64,000 nt of DNA. It comes from Candidatus Absconditabacteria bacterium (lineage in GTDB: Bacteria; Patescibacteriota; Gracilibacteria; Absconditabacterales; Absconditicoccaceae). The notes below the pieces were generated by a model. The model did not search any database. It saw nothing but the letters and a program-made list of their open reading frames with translations, and had not been told where the DNA came from. This document shows, in pieces, positions 27,718 through 58,324 of the stretch. The stretch spans positions 68,971-132,970 of the forward strand of contig JAQUVI010000002.1 in assembly GCA_028693445.1 (NCBI GenBank). The letters are read 5' to 3'. A program made the position numbers and the translations under genes. Position 1 is the first letter of the stretch, and every line of letters starts with the position of its first letter.

Positions 27718-27858
27718 GTTTGATTTTAAGTTTTAAATTGATTTTATTGTAATTTAGGTGTTTGTTGAGAGAAAGCAAGATAATTTTGTCAAAAAAATAT
27801 TTGATTTTTGTTTATTTTTTGTTATAATTGTAAAAATTTAGTTATTAACTATGTTGTC

Positions 27859-28680
27859 ATGGATGAATTTTTAAAAGAAAATAGTATTATAGTATTTGAA
27901 AATAAAAAAATTCGTCGTGTTTGGTATGAAAATCAGCGATATTTTTCTATTGTTGATGTGATTGAAGCTTTAACTAATTCTAGTATTCCGAGAAGATATC
28001 GAAGTGATTTAAAAATAAAATTAACACATGAATGAAGTCAGGTGTACGAAAAAATCGTACAACTGAAATTATTATCTTCTGATGGTAAAAAATATCTTAC
28101 AGATTGTGCTAATACTGAGCATATGTTTCGTATTATTCAATCAATACCATCTCCAAAAGCAGAACCATTCAAAAGATGGTTGGCAAAAGTTTGATATCAG
28201 AGAATTCAAGAGATAGAAAATCCAGAATTGTCGCAAGAAAGAATGAAAGAACTTTACGAGCAAAAATGATATCCAAAGGATTGGATAGATAAAAGAATCC
28301 GTGGAATTGCAATTAGACAAAATTTGACTGATGAATGGAAAGAAAGAGGTATTACATTGAAATCTGATTTTGCTATATTGACAGCTGAAATTTCCAAAGC
28401 TACTTTTGGTATGACACCTCAAGAATACAAAGAATATAAGTGATTGAATGAAAAATGAAAAAATTTGAGAGATCATATGACAGATTTTGAACTTATTTTT
28501 ACTATGTTGGGAGAAAAGGTTACTACTGAAATTTCTCAGCAAGAAAAACCAGAAACTTTTGAAAAAAATAAAAAAGTTGCATGAAGATGATGAAAAGTTG
28601 CTGGTGTTGCTAGAAAAGAAACTGAGAAAGAATTATGAAAGAGTGTTATTTCTTCAAATAATTTTTTACCGAATAAATAG
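27859..28680 (+). CDS. Bro-N domain protein (phage antirepressor-like)
   Basis: 273 aa. N-terminal Bro-N-type DNA-binding domain (about 1-110): FENKKIRRVWYENQRYFSIVDV, then IEALTNSS, PRRYRSDLKIKL, and LTDCANTEHMFRIIQSIPSPKAEPFKRWLAKVG. The C-terminal half (DWIDKRIRGIAIRQNLTDEWKERG, YKGLNEKGKNLRDHMTDFELIF) matches the part seen in chromosomal Bro-N proteins of many bacteria. The tail is Gly/Lys-rich (VAGRGGKVAGVARKE). Bro-N is typical of phage and mobile DNA, but no phage genes surround it. Promoter-like TTGATT-16-TATAAT lies about 25 bp upstream. Confidence 0.8.
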
Positions 28681-28721: not shown

Positions 28722-30821
28722 TTAAGCAGTAGGAGGTCTGTCTTGTCGAAGTCATTCTTGTTCTAATAATTTTCCAGGATTTGGATTTGTTATACTTTCT
28801 GATAGTGTTTCTGGTATTTTATCTAAATTTGGTTCAGCTTTTTGTGTTTCTAATACAGTTTTTTTGAGAAGATTTATGTCTATAATTTTTTTTCATTCTT
28901 TTTGAATGCTTAATTTCTCTATAGTATCCAATAAATTTTTTGTGTTTTTTTCTTCGGTTTCTATTGTGCTTTTATTTTCTTGTTTTTTAAATAATTTTCT
29001 AAAAAATTTACCTATTATATTTTGTTCTCATTGTTTTTCTGTTGATTCTTGTATAAATTTTGTCAATGTTCCAATATTTTCTCTAAATTCTTTGCTTTCT
29101 GAAATAGTATAGTTTTCCAAAGAATCGTCTAATATTTTTACAAGATTAAATAATTCTGGTTTTTCTTGTTTGTTGAAATTGTTTCAATAGATGTTTTTAT
29201 TTTCGGGGCTTATTATACTTTTGAAGTCGCTTAGGGTTTCTTGCGCTGCTAGGTTTTTTTGAACAGATTCTTTGATAAATGTTCTTACTATATTTTTGTT
29301 TTTTTGGAAATTTCTCATCAGTCATTCGTGGATTTTCACTTCTAGGTTTTGTTTGTATTCGTTTATATCTTTACTGGATTTGAGAATTGAGTCTTGATTA
29401 TTATCCAAAATTTTTGTTGCATCATTTTGGAGTCTTGTTATTGATGGTAAGCTAATTCATAATTTTTCAAAATTTCATTTTCAAAAGTTTAAAACATTTT
29501 TGTCTTTTGTTTGGAAAAGATAGTCTTCGATTGATAAATTGTTTTCAAGTTTTCAAAGATTGTATCTAATATTTATAAAGTTGTTTTCAATAACTCATCA
29601 TAGAGTTAGTTCGTTTCAATTTATATCAAGTCAGCTTCATATTTTTAAATCATCTTTTATTTCTTTTTCTGAAAAATCAAAAAAACTTGCTAATCAGCTA
29701 ATTGATGAGCCAAATACTCTTTGTTGAAATATTTCTTGTGTGTTGGCTTCTATTTGTCAAATTCTGTTTATAATTTGGTATTTGAAATTTTGATCAATAT
29801 TTTCTCGAGTTTTTCATTGTTTTAATTTCCAATTATTATCAAAATTTTCTTTGTATGTATCCGTATTTTCTAAATCAGTAAGAAAATTTTTATATTTTTC
29901 AAAATTATTGTCTTTTAGAAAATTATTTATTTCTTTTGGCCCTTCTGGAATCTCTTTTGATGGGGTTTTTATAGATGTGACATAATCGTTTATTTTTTCT
30001 TTATTGTCAGAAGTTTGTATAAGAGAGTTTGTAGCTCTTATTGCGTTTTCTGGTTTCCCGCTAAGATCACTGATTTTTTCTGGTCTAAATGATCTGGATT
30101 GTATTTCTTTTCATCATACAAGTTTATTTAAATTCTCAAAACTTTTTGTAAAATCTGAGTATTTTCATGTTTCTATACTTTTTTGATAAGTTTTTTGCAT
30201 AGAAAGAATTTCTTCTATTGAGACTTCTGTTTCTGGTTTGATTTCGTTTATTTTTTTTACTTTTTCTTGGGCATCTTTTCGTTCTTGGCTATCTTGCTTG
30301 ATATCGCTTATATCAACTAATTTGTCTTCTTCTGGAATTTTTGCAAAATTAGCTCTAGTTTCAGCTAATGCTTTTGCTATTTCTTTATATTCTTCTGAAC
30401 TTTCTTCTTTTTGTTCTAAATCAGAATCTTTTTGTTCTAAATCAGAATCTTTTTGTTCTAAATCAGAATCTTTTTGTTCTAAATCAGATATAGTTGATAT
30501 ATTTATATCTAATCATTTTTTATTTATAAAAAATTTTAAATCAGAAATAATATATTCTTCTAATTTTTCTTTTTCTAAAAAGCTATTTATTCACTTTGAT
30601 TTTAAATTATCTTTTATGTAATTATTTATATTATCTTCTCATAGGTCTCTTAGATTATCAAAAGTATTATAAAGTTTATTTATTGCATTAGTATTTCATC
30701 AAAATTTATTTTCTAATGTTTGTTGTATTGTATCTTTTTTTTCTGTTTTTGAAGAAATATCTTCTGGTATTTGAAGTTCTGGTATTTGTTCTTGTAATTT
30801 AGGTAATCATTCTGGATTCAT
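28722..30821 (-). CDS. Large coiled-coil protein, cassette 1 (699 aa)
   Basis: No known family. 699 aa, hydrophilic, no signal peptide. N-terminal region about 1-110, then a heptad tandem repeat DLEQKDS x4 (about 111-138) encoded by a 21-bp DNA repeat, then helical sequence. It resembles the 415-aa protein at 31756-33003: both contain NDYV/NNYV blocks and a conserved block (QRVFGSSISGLASFFDF here, QKRVFGSTISGLTSFFDF there); the other protein ends soon after this point while this one continues about 300 residues. It ends RQDRPPTA. Own promoter and 5' hairpin upstream. Confidence 0.7.
30409..30489 (-). repeat. 21-bp tandem repeat in cassette gene 1
   Basis: About four copies of TTTTTGTTCTAAATCAGAATC on the + strand, in frame, encoding DLEQKDS heptads on the - strand. 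Copies are nearly identical, so length change by slippage is likely. Confidence 0.9.
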
Positions 30822-30882
30822 AGCAAAAAAGAGCAGTAAAAGAATCTGCTCTAATTATAATTTTTTATGTAAAATTTGTCAA
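30822..30882 (-). promoter_or_regulatory. Promoter and 5' stem-loop of cassette gene 1
   Basis: On the - strand TTGACA (30877-30882 region), 17 bp, TATAAT (30854-30859), then AGAGCAG...CTGCTCT followed by TTTTTT ending just before the ATG. The expected start of transcription falls at the stem base, so the mRNA would open with this hairpin. It could be a 5' stabiliser, an attenuator, or the terminator of the preceding gene. Confidence 0.65.
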
Positions 30883-30890
30883 ATTTTCGG

Positions 30891-31706
30891 CTACTTAATT
30901 ACAGAGAATAATTTTTCTGTGTGAAGTGATCATTTCCGTCAATTTTCTTGAAAACCTTGTTTTATTTTTTTGATATTATCGTATAAGTATTGATTTTCTA
31001 TAACTTGTTCTGGAGTAAAGACCGATAATGATTCGTTTATTGATTCTATATTTCTTTTGATGTTTTGTTCTCTATTTTGAATACTTTGTTCTCTATTTTG
31101 AATACTTTGTTCTCTATTTTGAATACTTTGTTCCATTTCTTTTATTCTTTGTTGTAATTTTACAAGGTTTTCATTGAATTGTTTTTCGTATGCGGTAAAT
31201 CGATCTATATATTTTTTTTTGAATGTATTATAATATATATCTTCTTCTTCTGTATAATCTTCTGGTCGATATGTGTCTGTAAATATAGTTCATTTTGATA
31301 TTATATCACATTCTGTTGTTGAAACAATAAATGTAATTATGTCTTTTTCTCAATATGTATTTCATCGTTGAATTGATTTAAATATTTTATTTGCTTGTTC
31401 AATTTGAATCTTTCATCGAGTTGAATTTAATTCTTTTCTAAGTTTTGTTATATGCTCGTTTACTTTTGGGTTGTTTTTGATAGGGTAGTATTTGTTTATA
31501 TTATCAAAAGCATATCCGATAGGATTATTAGTATTACGTATATTTATATTGTTTGCTGCTTGATTGTTTTCAATTTGAGCTTTATTCTTCTGATTACTCG
31601 CTATATTCTGAGCCAAAGCATCCTTACTTGTTAATAAAAATCCAGCAAGTAAACTTGCTCAAAAACCTGTTTTGTGAAGTATTGATTTAATGTTGTTTTT
31701 CATCAT
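30891..31706 (-). CDS. Small secreted protein with heptad repeats, cassette 1 (271 aa)
   Basis: 271 aa with a signal peptide MMKNNIKSILHKTGFGASLL...LTSKDALAQ (cleavage likely after ALA). Downstream about 33-160 is a mixed region, then a coiled coil with EQSIQNR repeated 3-4 times (about 190-213, 21-bp DNA repeat), and a C-terminal FTPEQVIENQYLYDNIKKIK. The signal peptide and first mature residues (GFLLTSKDALAQNIASN, KNKAQ) are nearly identical to those of the 261-aa protein at 33083-33868, and both have FTPxxV after the coil, so they are paralogs. Function unknown. Confidence 0.75.
31064..31133 (-). repeat. 21-bp tandem repeat in cassette gene 2
   Basis: About 3.3 copies of TTTGTTCTCTATTTTGAATAC on the + strand, encoding EQSIQNR heptads on the - strand. 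Confidence 0.9.
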
Positions 31707-31736
31707 TGTTGAGTAAACGATAAATTTATTTTTTGT

Positions 31737-31764
31737 ATTATAATTATTTGTCTAATTATGTCAA
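31737..31764 (-). promoter_or_regulatory. Promoter of the 271-aa secreted protein
   Basis: On the - strand TTGACA (31759-31764), 16-bp spacer, TATAAT (31737-31742), about 30 bp before the start codon. It overlaps the stop codon of the upstream gene. Confidence 0.75.
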
Positions 31765-33003
31765 ATTAAAAATGTGGATTGCCACGCTGTCGCTCGCAAT
31801 GACTGAGAGATGTTCTTTTTGTGCAATAGAAAAATCAAAAAAGCTGGTTAATCAACTAATTGTAGAACCGAAAACTCTTTTTTGTATTGTTGATTGTGTT
31901 TGTTCTTCTAAATTATTTATTTCTAGTAAAATATTACGTTGTCGCTTTGTTTTTTCTTGTAAATTTTCTTCTGTGGTTTTGTTTTCATCTTCTTTTGGTT
32001 CTTGAGGTAGTAATGTTTTGTATTTATTGAAAAGTTCTTGATTTTTTTCTTTGTCGAATTCTTCTTTGATTTCATTATTGTTTAGTTTTTTTATTTCTTT
32101 TGATTTCTCTTGATAATTACTAGATCATCAATTTATTTGTTGTACGTAATTGTTTATTTTGGGATTATTATCTATTATTGAGTTTGTTGTATTAATAGCA
32201 TTTTCTCATTTAAAATCTTCTGATTTTACAATTCATCTTTTGGGGAATAATTTGTTTTCTAATTTTTCATATGATTTTGCAAATTCAGTATCTTTTAATT
32301 CTTCTTTATGATTGGAATAGGTGTAATTTAATGATACGTAATCATTGATTTGATCTTCTGAAAATCCCTTATCTTTAAGTTTGTTGAGTGTTTTATCTTT
32401 TTCTAAAATCTCTTTTTGTTTTTTTAATTTTTCTTGATCTTCTTTATTATCTTTATTTAATTTATATTTATTAGGAAGATTTTCGTAATCTTTTTGTGCT
32501 TGTTCTAGAAGTTGTTTTGTCTCTTCATCTATTTTCTCTTCTGTTTCTATTTCACTTTTTTTACCTTCTATTTCACTTTTTTTACCTTCTATTTCACTTT
32601 TTTTACCTTCTATTTCACTTTTTTTACCTTCTATTTCACTTTTTTTACCTTCTATTTCACTATATGTATCTATTATTGATTGTCTTTGTTTAAGATCAAT
32701 TTGGTCTATAATTTTCTTTTCTTCAATTACCTTTTCAGAATCACTAGCCATTGACAATAAGAAAAAATCATTTCAATTTATGTTTTTAATATAATCTAGT
32801 AAATCGTTTTGATATTCTTTTGGTAATTTGTTTTTTATATTTTTGAAGAAAGTTGTAATATTTTTTTGTTCTTCTTCTCCTATTTGGTTTTCTTGGCATT
32901 TTTTTTGTATAAGAAAATTAACATCTTCTTTATCTTGATTTTGAGAAGGAGTTTGTTCTTTAATCTCTTTTTTAATTTCTTGATTTTCTCCTGTTTCAAC
33001 CAT
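31756..33003 (-). CDS. Coiled-coil protein, cassette 2, C-terminally truncated (415 aa)
   Basis: 415 aa, no signal peptide, acidic/basic N-terminus (MVETGENQEIKKEIKEQ). It contains SEIEGKK repeated five times plus a partial copy (about 115-155, 21-bp DNA repeat), then helical sequence with the block QKRVFGSTISGLTSFFDF shared with the 699-aa paralog. Immediately after that block the frame runs into a family C repeat (coding VIASDSVAIHI) and stops, whereas the paralog continues about 300 residues. So this copy looks truncated by repeat insertion or by recombination at a repeat. Two UGA codons (32773, 32233) are read as Gly. Confidence 0.75.
31775..31806. repeat. Family C unit inside the truncated coiled-coil gene
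   Basis: GGATTGCCACGCTGTCGCTCGCAATGACTGAGAGA matches the intergenic units at 33.94-34.01 kb and forms the last codons of the 415-aa gene. Confidence 0.8.
32546..32661 (-). repeat. 21-bp tandem repeat in cassette gene 3
   Basis: Five to six near-perfect copies of TTTTTTTACCTTCTATTTCAC on the + strand, encoding SEIEGKK heptads on the - strand. It is not a CRISPR array: no spacers, and the copies abut. Confidence 0.92.
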
Positions 33004-33045
33004 TAATTTTTAAAACAAATAAATACAGATAAAGTCTCGGTATTT

Positions 33046-33074
33046 ATTATATTGGAAATTGGTTGATTTGTCAA
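33046..33074 (-). promoter_or_regulatory. Promoter of the 415-aa coiled-coil gene
   Basis: On the - strand TTGACA (33069-33074), 17-bp spacer, TATAAT (33046-33051), about 40 bp before the start codon at 33003. Confidence 0.75.
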
Positions 33075-33082
33075 ATTTTTGA

Positions 33083-33868
33083 CTACTTTAGAGCGTCAAA
33101 AAGAGAAATTATGTGTGGATTTGTTGGCGTTTGTCCTAAATTTTTATATCTTTGTTGTCGTCTTATAATAATATTTCTAATGTTTGGATCTGATTTTACC
33201 ATATCTGGAGTAATAAATTGCATTGTGTTTTCTATTTCTAGGCGATTTTTTTCTAATCTTTCTCTTCATTGTTCTATATCTTTTTTTCATTGTTCTATAT
33301 CTTTTTTTCATTGTTCTATATCTTTTTTTCATTGTTCTATATCTTTAATCATTTGATCTAGATTACTTTTGTATCGATCCATAAAAGCCTTTCAAAACTT
33401 CATAGAAGCCTTGAAGTTTGCTGCTTCTCTTGATTGATTATTCTTTGAAAAGATATTGGTAACGTCTCTATCTCATCCAAATACATAACGTTCTAATGCG
33501 AATATAATTGTCCGAATTTGTTGTTTTGGATCTGAGATGTTGTTGACAATGCTTTCTATGATAAGTTGGTTTACTTGATTTCTAATAGTTCATTTACCAA
33601 GTCTGTTTATCAAAAAATTAGCTTGATTTATACTTTCTTGATCTGGGAAATAGTTTTGTATGTTTTGTTGTGTAAAAGCCAAAGGATCGGTGTATGCTAG
33701 AGAATTTGCGTTGTTTGTAACTCAATCTGTATTTTCAGTTTGAGCCTTATTTTTATCATTACTCGCTATATTCTGTGCCAAAGCATCTTTGCTTGTTAAC
33801 AAAAAACCCGCAAGTACACTTGCTCCTAACCCTGCTTTGTGCATAGCTGATTTTAGTTTGTTTGTCAT
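33083..33868 (-). CDS. Small secreted protein with heptad repeats, cassette 2 (261 aa)
   Basis: 261 aa with signal peptide MTNKLKSAMHKAGLGASVL... ending TSKDALAQ, nearly the same as the 271-aa paralog. The mature part has INRLGKGTIRNQVNQLIIES and IRTIIFALERYVFG, then KDIEQGK heptads repeated four times (about 175-202; the Gly is UGA within the 21-bp repeat), and FITPDMVKSDPNIRNIIIRRQ. Function unknown; a secreted or periplasmic coiled-coil partner of the neighbouring large protein is inference. Confidence 0.75.
33265..33346 (-). repeat. 21-bp tandem repeat in cassette gene 4
   Basis: About four copies of ATTGTTCTATATCTTTTTTTC on the + strand, encoding DIEQGKK heptads on the - strand, with one UGA glycine in each unit. 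Confidence 0.9.
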
Positions 33869-33899: not shown

Positions 33900-34050
33900 T
33901 TTTGGATTCCCGCTCCAGCTTCGCAACAAGGCGGGAATGACTGAGAGCTGGATTGCTTCGCTGACGCTCGCAATGATTGTTGATTGCTTCGCTGACGCTC
34001 GCAATGACTAAGAGAGATTCCGACTCCAACTGGCAAGGTCGGAATGACAT
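33900..34050. repeat. Family C repeat array
   Basis: Contains GGATTCCCGCTCCAGC, AAGGCGGGAATGACTGAGAG, two copies of GGATTGCTTCGCTGACGCTCGCAATGA-type text in tandem (about 33951-34008), and GATTCCGACTCC...GGTCGGAATGAC. Each unit is itself an inverted repeat. Confidence 0.8.
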
Positions 34051-34069: not shown

Positions 34070-34097
34070 ATTATACGTATTTGAATTTAATTGTCAA
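34070..34097 (-). promoter_or_regulatory. Promoter of the 261-aa secreted protein
   Basis: On the - strand TTGACA (34092-34097), 16-bp spacer, TATAAT (34070-34075). It would give a leader of about 200 nt containing the family C array. Confidence 0.7.
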
Positions 34098-46964: not shown

Positions 46965-49487
46965 TTATCTAGATATTTCCAATACTTTATCTCGTATTTG
47001 CATATCTTGAATTTGTTGATTATGGGTAACTGTATAGAATTTAATATTTCTTTGTTTAATAAAATCTTCCAAAAGATCGGCGACTTTGCTTACTGTTTCA
47101 GAATCTAGATTATTTATTGTTTCATCTAGAAATAGTAATGGTGATCTCATATAAGACGATATAGAAAGCATCCAAATAAGTTTTAAAATAATTTTTTGTC
47201 ATCAGCTGAGACTTTTTATTTCTCTTTCTCATTGTTGATCAATAATATTTGCCTCTAATTCCAGTTTATCACTACTTGTTTTATTTAATTTAAGTGATAT
47301 TTGATAGTCAACAATTTGTGATAAATAATTATTAATTATATCATTTAAAATCGGTAAATGGTCTTGTAAAACCAGAAGAAGTAGTTCTTTTGAAAAAATA
47401 TTGTAGAGATTTCCTATTTGTTTCTCTTGTCTTTTTAAAACTTCTGTTTCTCTTTGAATTATTTTAAATTCTTGTATCATATTTTCTATATCACGTTGAA
47501 GTATTATACATTGATTATTGTATTTTTCTAGTTCTTCTATTCATTTGTTTTTATTATTTTGTATTTGTTCTTCTACTATTTCTTTTTGATTTTCTAAAGT
47601 TTTTGATTCAGATTCGTATTCTTTTATTTCTTGTTCTGATATTTTTATTATTTCATTGTTTTTTTCTATTTGTATCATGTATTCTTCTTTCTTTTTTTGT
47701 TCATTTTCAATTTCTTTTAGTTGTTGCTCTTTTATGACTTTTTCTTTTTTGAGTCATATGTATAGTTGATAATTTGTTTCTATAGATTTCCGATCTATTT
47801 CATTTAAGAAATTTTTTATTGATAATGTTATTTGTTCTTGTTGTTTTATATTTTTCTCTAAAATATCTATTTCTTCTAGAAAATTATCGTTGTCTATATT
47901 AGATTTTTGTAGCTTTATTTTTTTTATTTCATCTGATTTTTGCTGTAATTCGTTTTCTAAATTTCATTTCTTTTTGAGAAAGGTTTGTTTTTGTTCTTCA
48001 AATTGATCGAATGTTTTTTTGTTTATAGCTTTGATAAAAGGGCAATTTGATTCTATTTTTTCACAAAAAAAAGTTGCTTGTTGTTTTATATTGTCTTCAA
48101 AGTTTTTTAAATGATCATTTATTTCGTTTATTTGTTTTGTGAGAGATGTTTGTTGTTCTATCAATGATTTTTCTTGTTGAACAAGGTTCTCTTTTATTGA
48201 TTTTTGTTCTAATTGTTTATTTTGTATCATAAGTTGGTTGTTTTTTATTTTCTCGTTTAGTGATTTACCTTTTTCTATCAATTGTTTAATTATGCTATAT
48301 ATTGATTCTATTCAATATATTTCATCTTCTGTATAAAATTCTTGCAATTCTTGATCATATTTATTGCTTTCTAAGAAAGTTTTAAGTTTTTCGTAGTTTT
48401 GTTCAGTATCTTTTTGGTTAATTGTTTTTTGAATTTCCTCTAGTTCTTTTTTTATGTTTTCAAAATTGTTTGTTTCTATTTTTTTGATGTTTTCTGTTAG
48501 TTCTTGATTGTTTTTTTGAAGATTAAATAGATTTTGTCTTTTGGAGTCTACTTTGTTTTTTATGGTTTTTATTGATTCTTGTATGTTTTCTAACTGATTT
48601 TTTATTTTTTTTTGTTTGTCTTTTTCTAGTTGAATTATTGTATCTATTTCTCTGTTTATGTCTGGTAAAAAATTGCTTATGTCTAAATCTTGTATCGTTA
48701 TTTTTTCTTGAATAAGCTCTATTTCTTTGATTGTATCATCTTTTTTTTGAACTAATCAACTAATTTCAGAAAATTCATTTTTTTTAAGTTTGTTGTGATT
48801 ATCTATTAAATTTTTTATTAATGATTTCGTCTTTTCATCAAATTTGCTTGTGTCTGAATAAGTTTTTAGTTTATAATTTATCTCTTTTTTCTTTTCAGCT
48901 ATTATTTCTTTTGCTTCATCTATTCATAATAATCAAAATACGTTTTTTAGTACAGTCAATCTTTCACTTGGAAGTAATTCAAAAATATTATCTGAATCTT
49001 GCATTAAAAAAACTGTATTTACAAAAACTTCTTTGGGTGGTAGAAAAGAAAGGAACGTTTGTTGTAAATCTGTTTCGTTTTTGAATTCTATTTTTTCTAA
49101 ATTTGCTCAAGATTTTCTGATTATATTTTCTATATCTTCATTTTTTTTGATAATTTCATCTTCTGATATAGTTAGGTTTTCTATTTTATAAAGCGATGAA
49201 GTACAGGATTCTTTTACTTTTGCTTTTGTTATTTGTCTGATTATTAGTCGAGTTTCGTTTTCAAAAGTAAAAACTATTTTGATAAAACCTTCTGATGAAG
49301 TATTGTTTAGTAGGTTTCTTGTATTGTATTTGTATAATCCATATATTGGGCCATCAAAGAAAAGAAAACTTTTTCCTGTTCATATTGGTGCTTTGATAAG
49401 ATATTTTCATTTTTGAAAAAACAAAGAAATTGGATTTCATTTGAATGGTCAAATATTTTTATATGAGATTGCTATTATATCTAGCAT
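46965..49487 (-). CDS. Rad50/SbcC-like SMC ATPase
   Basis: 840 aa. Split ABC ATPase with long antiparallel coiled coils. Walker A at about 31-38 (APIGTGKSFL), coiled coil arms about 190-420 and 450-720, ABC signature SLSGGQKIILK near 757, Walker B PLLFLDETINNLDSE near 785, and a terminal TVTHNQQ His-loop. At the coil apex (about 425) a single NCPFI replaces the CxxC zinc hook. No SbcD/Mre11 nuclease gene is next to it. A role in DNA end processing is plausible; a host-defence role is possible but unsupported. Confidence 0.85.
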
Positions 49488-57118: not shown

Positions 57119-58324
57119 ATGAAAATTATTCATAAGAAAAAAGCTTCTAAAAATTTAAAAAATAAGTTTCAAAGCCAACTTTCTTTTTGAGAAATACTCA
57201 AAAGATTTTTTGTATTTTGGTTTCTTATGTTTTTTTGTGCACTTGTAATTAATCAACAGGAATCATTTTTATTAAAAATATCAAATAATCCTCAAGAAGT
57301 TATTTTTGTCTTTCCTGGTAGTCCAAATGATTGGTGAATAGATGAAAATGAAATATTAACTCATTGAGCAGCAGATGATTGGTGATATCTTTTTGAAGAT
57401 GAAGTAACTGATGAACAGATATTTAAACCTATTGAAACAACAGATAATCAAGATAATAATTCTGTTTCTGTAGAAAAAGATTTTATTTCTCATGATAAAG
57501 ATTATTTCCCTAATGATAAAGATATTTTTTCAGATAATAAAGACAATTTTTCAGATGATAAGGATATATTTTATGAATGAGTGGATATTTCAGATATTGT
57601 TATTGAAGATGAAATACCAGATGATCAAGATCAATTAAAAGTGTGTATTACTCCATGGTGAGAATACGTTGCTAATTGAGATTTTGTTTTGGCTTATGAA
57701 CAAAGAAAAGATGTAGATAATCTTTGTAATGTTCAAAGAAGATTCTGTTATGATTGAATACTTGATTGAACATATATTCAAAAATCATGTAAAGAAAATA
57801 CTTTGTATTCTTATGTAAAACCTGATGCGATTTCATATACACAAAAACCTGTAGATACATTTGTACAACCAAATCAACCATCTTTGAGTTGAGCTAATTT
57901 TGATACGCATTGAAAAATAGATTGAACGACAAATTCTATAGATGTTTGGGGGTTACCTGGTTCTGGTAGACCAGTTGATATTGTTTCAACTTCTCAAACA
58001 TCATTATCAAATACTGTATGTATTACTCCATGGTGAGAAAAAATAAAAAATTGACAATTTGTGAAGGCATATAAATCTTCAATTGGTCTTATTGATTTAC
58101 CGTGTGAAGTTGAGCTAAGAATGTGTGTTGGTTGAAATTTGAAAGGTTATTATGAAAATAGAACTTGTACATTTAAAAAAATGACTTATAGAGATTATTT
58201 ATCTGAAAATTATGATTTAGATAGTCCTACTATTTGAGATCTTATAAATACTATTGATACAGATGAAAAACAAACTACCTATAAAAATCGATTATTTTGG
58301 AAATGGTTAGATAAATATTTTTAA
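57119..58324 (+). CDS. Membrane-anchored protein with two CxTPWGE repeats
   Basis: 401 aa, no known family. Basic N-terminus and one membrane helix (about 28-47, FVFWFLMFFCALVINQ), then an acidic low-complexity stretch with DKD repeats (about 120-155: NDKDIFSDNKDNFSDDKD), then two homologous Cys-rich modules of about 55 residues starting VCITPWGE (near 177 and 300) and sharing RRFCYDG/RMCVGG and a CxxK-type end. Ends with KNRLFWKWLDKYF. Probably exported. Cys pairs suggest disulfide-stabilised surface modules. Confidence 0.65.

Follow-up and report, generated by a model that had tools for sequence, protein, structure and literature searches.

Paired genes of Absconditabacteria with unrelated 21-bp heptad arrays at matching sites and a helix whose length shifts in whole heptads

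Size-variable surface lipoproteins of mycoplasmas, such as Vlp of Mycoplasma hyorhinis, Vsp of M. bovis and Vsa of M. pulmonis, form sets of paralogues with a conserved signal region, divergent bodies and in-frame tandem repeats of varying number, and the length of the repeats influences adhesion and immune resistance (PMC12815946). Intragenic in-frame tandem repeats (VNTRs) that are polymorphic between strains also occur in Legionella and other pathogens (PMC2639597). In the lineage studied here, the Absconditabacterium Vampirococcus lives as an epibiotic predator and has a fibrous surface; a role in a fibrous contact surface has been proposed for its giant membrane proteins and those of other CPR bacteria (1392–4163 aa), most of which have known interaction domains (PMC8080830). 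Here we analyze a stretch of 64,000 nucleotides of an Absconditabacteria genome (the window), which contains two copies of a previously undescribed gene pair. In our comparison the pair most resembles the size-variable surface proteins of mycoplasmas, yet it is not a member of that group.

The organism reads TGA as glycine (NCBI table 25) in all four genes of the two pairs; a reading with table 11 was dropped, as it fragments the ORFs and makes the genes look broken, while code 25 leaves all four open. One of the relatives used below, G015, is assigned to candidate division SR1, that is, Absconditabacteria. The genes are transcribed from the minus strand in the order S1, L1, S2, L2, as two tandem pairs of a small, putatively secreted protein (S) and a large partner (L). 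S1 (33083–33868; 261 aa) has a candidate signal peptide, ...DALAQ/N, and its code-25 ORF also matches the S-family profile, as that of L2 (28722–30821; 699 aa), the full-length large partner, matches the L-family profile. S2 (30891–31706; 271 aa), the second small and putatively exported protein, and L1 (31756–33003; 415 aa) were assigned as code-25 ORFs. L1 is truncated after VFGSTISGLTSFFDF. It stops a few residues past a VFGSxISGLxSFFDF block, inside a copy of a dispersed repeat (..GTCATTGCGAGCGACAGCGTGGCAATCC..; 31771–31810, minus strand) that supplies its end, and its final residues, QKEHLSVIASDSVAIHIFNLT, derive from this repeat. L1 therefore lacks the conserved C-terminal domain and is about 300 residues shorter than L2 and its relatives. 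The dispersed repeat, of the TCATTGCGAGCGTCAGCGAAGCAATC type, is also present upstream of S1 (33930–34030) and in many copies elsewhere in the genome.

The sequence-only reading of this stretch had described four genes that each carry their own near-perfect, in-frame 21-bp array coding for a heptad, and this description holds. The arrays, all on the minus strand, encode KDIEQGK in S1 (33251–33346; 4.6 x 21 bp, 96%), SEIEGKK in L1 (32545–32661; 5.6 x 21 bp, 100%), EQSIQNR in S2 (31064–31133; 3.3 x 21 bp, 100%) and DLEQKDS in L2 (30406–30488; 4.0 x 21 bp, 100%). When the entire 1,166,583-base assembly was scanned (951 predicted genes with 100 aa or more), only six genes had a strong 21-bp coding array, and four of the six were the S and L genes of the window (Fisher p = 4e-10, a test picked after the locus was known, for which the relatives described below are the cleaner version). 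The other two arrays are proline-rich: QPVPTEA x 13 (G000:C7:137062–137883) and PTQPEEE x 6 (G000:C3:83249–83575). The same genome (G000) also contains TTAGAAC-type 7-bp satellites with periods of 7, 14, 21 and 42 (for example, C1:50789–50993 and C8:62466–62553), and a degenerate heptad-like array of five 21-bp units (72%) lies at 57476–57580 of the window, in a gene for a 407-aa protein with an N-terminal hydrophobic segment.

How do these genes compare with the systems described above? As with Vlp, Vsp and Vsa, the signal region is common to the paralogues: the leaders of S1, S2 and the S of sister species G002 are ~80% identical and the bodies ~30%. Unlike the mycoplasma lipoproteins, the S leaders of the window and of most relatives, inspected by eye, have no lipobox Cys and show A-x-A type sites (DALAQ/N), the S repeat is always one heptad within a phase-locked helix, and S has a large partner, L, with an array of its own. 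A sequence relation of S or L to Vlp, Vsp or Vsa was not found. With the Legionella VNTR genes, S and L share repeats that are in-frame and lie in coding genes, but at the S/L site nearly every lineage has a heptad of its own, new and unrelated to the others, and this holds in two adjacent genes. The lineage and a proposed role at the contact surface are shared with the giant proteins of Vampirococcus; S and L differ from these in being small to medium in size and in having no known domain.

When 353 genomes of the class were searched with profiles, the cassette turned up in about 20, which belong to one Absconditabacteria (SR1) family. The L profile matches 22 genomes, all from the window's family, and S adjoins L in most of them; the S profile gave a single marginal match outside the family (E = 5e-4), and no convincing S–L pair was found outside it in these 353 genomes. 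The window shows the features of this family, a leader and a central long helix in S, followed at the same locus by an L with its C-terminal domain. The S-then-L order is kept in most of the roughly 20 genomes, at differing chromosomal sites: two genomes of the window's genus each have one pair near acetate kinase, and other genera have it elsewhere, for example near clpC/alr-like genes (gene names by eye). In the window, a BRO-N/DinD-like gene (27808–28680), which matches the PADLOC candidate PDC-S13 (E = 2e-118) and phrog_15286, lies between L2 and acetate kinase, and it is absent from the corresponding place in the two same-genus genomes. An L-like protein occurs without S at L092 (6236–11641) and L035 (5221–10488), with flanking genes that look by eye like ribose-1,5-bisphosphate isomerase and RuBisCO.

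Searches of Pfam, PHROG, NCBIfam, PADLOC and PDB found no relative of S or L and no recognized adhesion domain in either. Matches to YscO, SPAM, FlbB, MutS2, RNase Y and others were rejected as coiled-coil noise, as almost all of them are confined to the heptad region and they score below curated cut-offs. The same kind of noise was all that PADLOC offered toward an identity as defense proteins and all that PHROG offered toward a phage origin, and IMG/VR contained no S or L relatives. Among open-licence papers, we found no description of a coiled-coil or tandem-repeat surface protein of Absconditabacteria or Patescibacteria.

In the relatives, a strong 21-bp array is present in 21 of 47 cassette genes and in 2 of 221 flanking genes (p = 3e-16), and one of these two flanking genes is actually a third S copy. 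About half of the cassette genes of the relatives have no visible DNA array. The units are mutually unrelated (EGEQIRK, QQELAKN, KDIDTNK, SNIDNTK, TELKEKQ, EGEQLKA, NQGQEEA, QTEMETT, STIDTNT, AQERAQE and SELEQSR, among others), and the arrays built from them occupy the same part of the S or L alignment. The earlier suggestion of independent repeats at matching places thus gains support from unrelated arrays that share a site in S and L of about a dozen further genomes.

Helix length in S was taken as the spacing between the conserved R in the YxxRF motif and the F in FTxxDV, leaving out members that lack the F anchor (n = 9). The spacing is 33, 40, 40, 47, 54, 54, 54 and 61 in eight of the genes, and the remaining one has 57. 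In S1, the anchor was placed on the T of x-T-P according to the multiple alignment (placed on its F, the distance would be 53). Eight of the nine values, including those of genes with no visible DNA repeat, equal 5 modulo 7 (P about 1e-5). The aliphatic core residue of the array has the same phase relative to the downstream F anchor in all five S genes compared, and the sister S proteins of G047 and G015, which are 45% identical, differ at the helix by one clean 21-residue gap. In eight of the nine genes, the length of the S helix thus shifts in whole-heptad steps with its register kept. As controls, the C-terminal segment is constant at 32–33 residues, and the N-terminal segment takes only the lengths 85, 86, 92 and 96, which makes it no strong negative control. 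The stepwise spacing also strengthens the proposal that variable-length coiled coils are selected.

The strongest rival to selection on length is non-adaptive turnover with a phase constraint: the arrays would lie in tolerant helical linkers where 21-bp units are gained and lost by slippage, only whole-heptad indels survive and length itself is unselected. The whole-heptad constraint by itself accounts for the S spacing, some family members have no arrays, and one published paper reportedly argues that trimeric autotransporters evolve non-adaptively (PMC7688925). Such turnover fits less well with the near absence of arrays from the genome's other genes, several of which encode coiled-coil-like proteins (for example, the 840-aa protein at 46965–49487), with their recurrence at the same site in both genes of the cassette, and with the association between the presence of an array in S and in L (p = 0.009). 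We regard this explanation as a serious but doubtful one.

The AlphaFold model of S2 (seven-sequence alignment; mean pLDDT 73) consists of a helical domain (62–146), a helix (153–227) that includes the EQSIQNR array, and terminal helices; Foldseek found no match to it. The long helix may well form a coiled coil or stalk, although most array units offer a single aliphatic residue per heptad, which is weak for a canonical coiled coil. From the signal peptide, recognized by eye, and hydropathy, S is probably exported. As in the trimeric autotransporter adhesins YadA and BadA, stalk length would vary by repeat units. The stalks of these adhesins have an I..N/T polar-core pattern, which the L units STIDTNT and KDIDTNK resemble. 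Unlike them, S and L contain no recognizable YadA-type anchor or head domain (Pfam, NCBIfam), and L is without a signal peptide. When judged as exported coiled-coil stalks, S combines a signal peptide (by eye) with a predicted long helix, while L, by its sequence, is not exported.

S1 and S2, and likewise L1 and L2, behave as paralogs, as had been proposed: the S1 and S2 leaders share 137 bp at 82% DNA identity, L1 and L2 share the VFGSxISGLxSFFDF block (82 bp at 77%) and are homologous at the protein level (E about 1e-16 to 1e-18), so that significant similarity exists within each of the two proposed paralog pairs. The sequence-only reading had placed the arrays after this duplication. Their independence at matching places gains support, but duplication as their origin does not, since relatives with a single copy also carry arrays. 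The S tree places S2 with the lone S of G002 (99/93), nearer to it than to S1; the window pair is therefore not a fresh duplication. Further duplications are present in G007, G003, G030 and G047.

It is also possible that tandem S or S–L copies with constant 5′ blocks serve as a reservoir for recombinational exchange of S bodies, in the style of antigenic variation. This is well visible in G007, which has three S copies (L098, 7375–11125 and 15783–16717), the third ~5 kb away. Two of them are 95–96% identical over the first ~285 coding bases and are followed by L starts that are 92–93% identical, while their bodies diverge to unalignable DNA and carry different arrays; two L starts in this genome are left as fragments. 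The upstream cassettes of G000, G007 and G003 retain only a truncated L, and the S duplications in G030 and G047 would also suit such exchange. As a general explanation it appears improbable, given that S1 and S2 of the window share just the short leader and are old copies and that G001, G002, G015 and G037 have a single S–L copy. Exchange between tandem copies may nonetheless add to the variation.

S and L diverge far faster than neighboring genes. Between the window and sister species G002, RecA and LexA are 94–95% identical, and the S bodies (outside the leader) and L are about 26–35% identical, with L at 26% and the S bodies at about 30%. Between the L proteins of G017 and G034, the N-terminal array part is 32% identical and the remainder 79%. 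The genes are also set apart by their promoters. Perfect (12/12) sigma-70-type TTGACA–TATAAT matches occur four times in the region, once per S or L gene and nowhere else, all on the minus strand: with 16-bp spacers for S1 (34070–34097) and S2 (31737–31764) and 17-bp spacers for L1 (33046–33074) and L2 (30854–30882). Counting relatives and window together, a perfect promoter precedes 15 of 50 cassette genes and 3 of 291 others, with a spacer of 16 bp for S (15 of 17) and 17 bp for L (8 of 9). A hairpin and T-run just 5′ of the L2 start codon (30854–30822) lies on or immediately after the −10 box, as it does at L starts in L033, L029 and L091, so that a read-through transcript of S could end where the L transcript begins.

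The perfect promoters suggest that S and L are abundant, as might be expected of an internal or envelope scaffold (for division, shape or a secretion apparatus) requiring a length-setting rod and playing no part in host contact. Such a scaffold would also suit an L that looks cytosolic and a family-restricted distribution that is not tied to a known host. However, conserved scaffolds rarely outpace their neighbors in evolution or hop between loci, and we consider this possibility very unlikely.

L itself is less well defined. Sequence inspection revealed neither a signal peptide nor a membrane segment, so S and L may occupy different compartments; the missing signal peptide is the weakest point of the view that the two act together at a contact surface. 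Phase-locking of the L arrays to the following helix was not significant, and compared with the S arrays they are more acidic (p = 0.005) and poorer helix formers (p = 0.002). The structure prediction for L is poor (pLDDT 58), with helices and a five-strand sheet at 399–453. Its best Foldseek match, C1QBP/p32, was rejected (E = 0.08, TM 0.2, poor L model).

The explanation we favor, with confidence that is evenly balanced, is a lineage-specific S and L system in which an exported, adjustable helical stalk and a co-evolving partner act, probably at the contact surface. S would be made from a strong promoter and then exported, and would run from a conserved leader through an N-terminal helical domain and the long array helix to a small cap at the C-terminus. 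This helix would be a stalk or spacer, and expansion and loss of 21-bp units would reset its length by whole heptads, changing the distance between the two end domains but keeping their faces in register. L would be the partner, in which a fast-evolving N-terminal region includes a polar heptad array and the C-terminal domain is better conserved. S and L evolve rapidly, probably under diversifying selection, most likely because they act where the cell meets a host bacterium or neighboring cells. A contact surface is the likely place because Vampirococcus, as noted above, is both predatory and epibiotic and has a fibrous surface. We infer the S–L interaction, the diversifying selection, the host contact and the change by slippage. 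The earlier idea of a surface or host-contact fiber is plausible and unproven: the export signal of S, seen by eye, speaks for it, and the lack of a signal peptide or membrane segment in L speaks against it.

Some Absconditabacteria prey on other bacteria, and S and L are candidates for part of their poorly known contact machinery, as a pair that is probably abundant and fast-evolving. Position, period and phase of the repeat are conserved in two adjacent genes across many species and its sequence is not, and lengths modulo 7 provide a quantitative handle on selection for coiled-coil length. A bolder and rather unlikely proposal is that this epibiotic lineage has a dedicated, continually renewed length-tuning system, in which the same site in two partners is time and again refilled with newly expanded heptads of new sequence and S length is heptad-quantised. 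If this is true, stalk length, and with it perhaps the gap to the host cell or the identity of that cell, would be an evolvable trait independent of stalk sequence.
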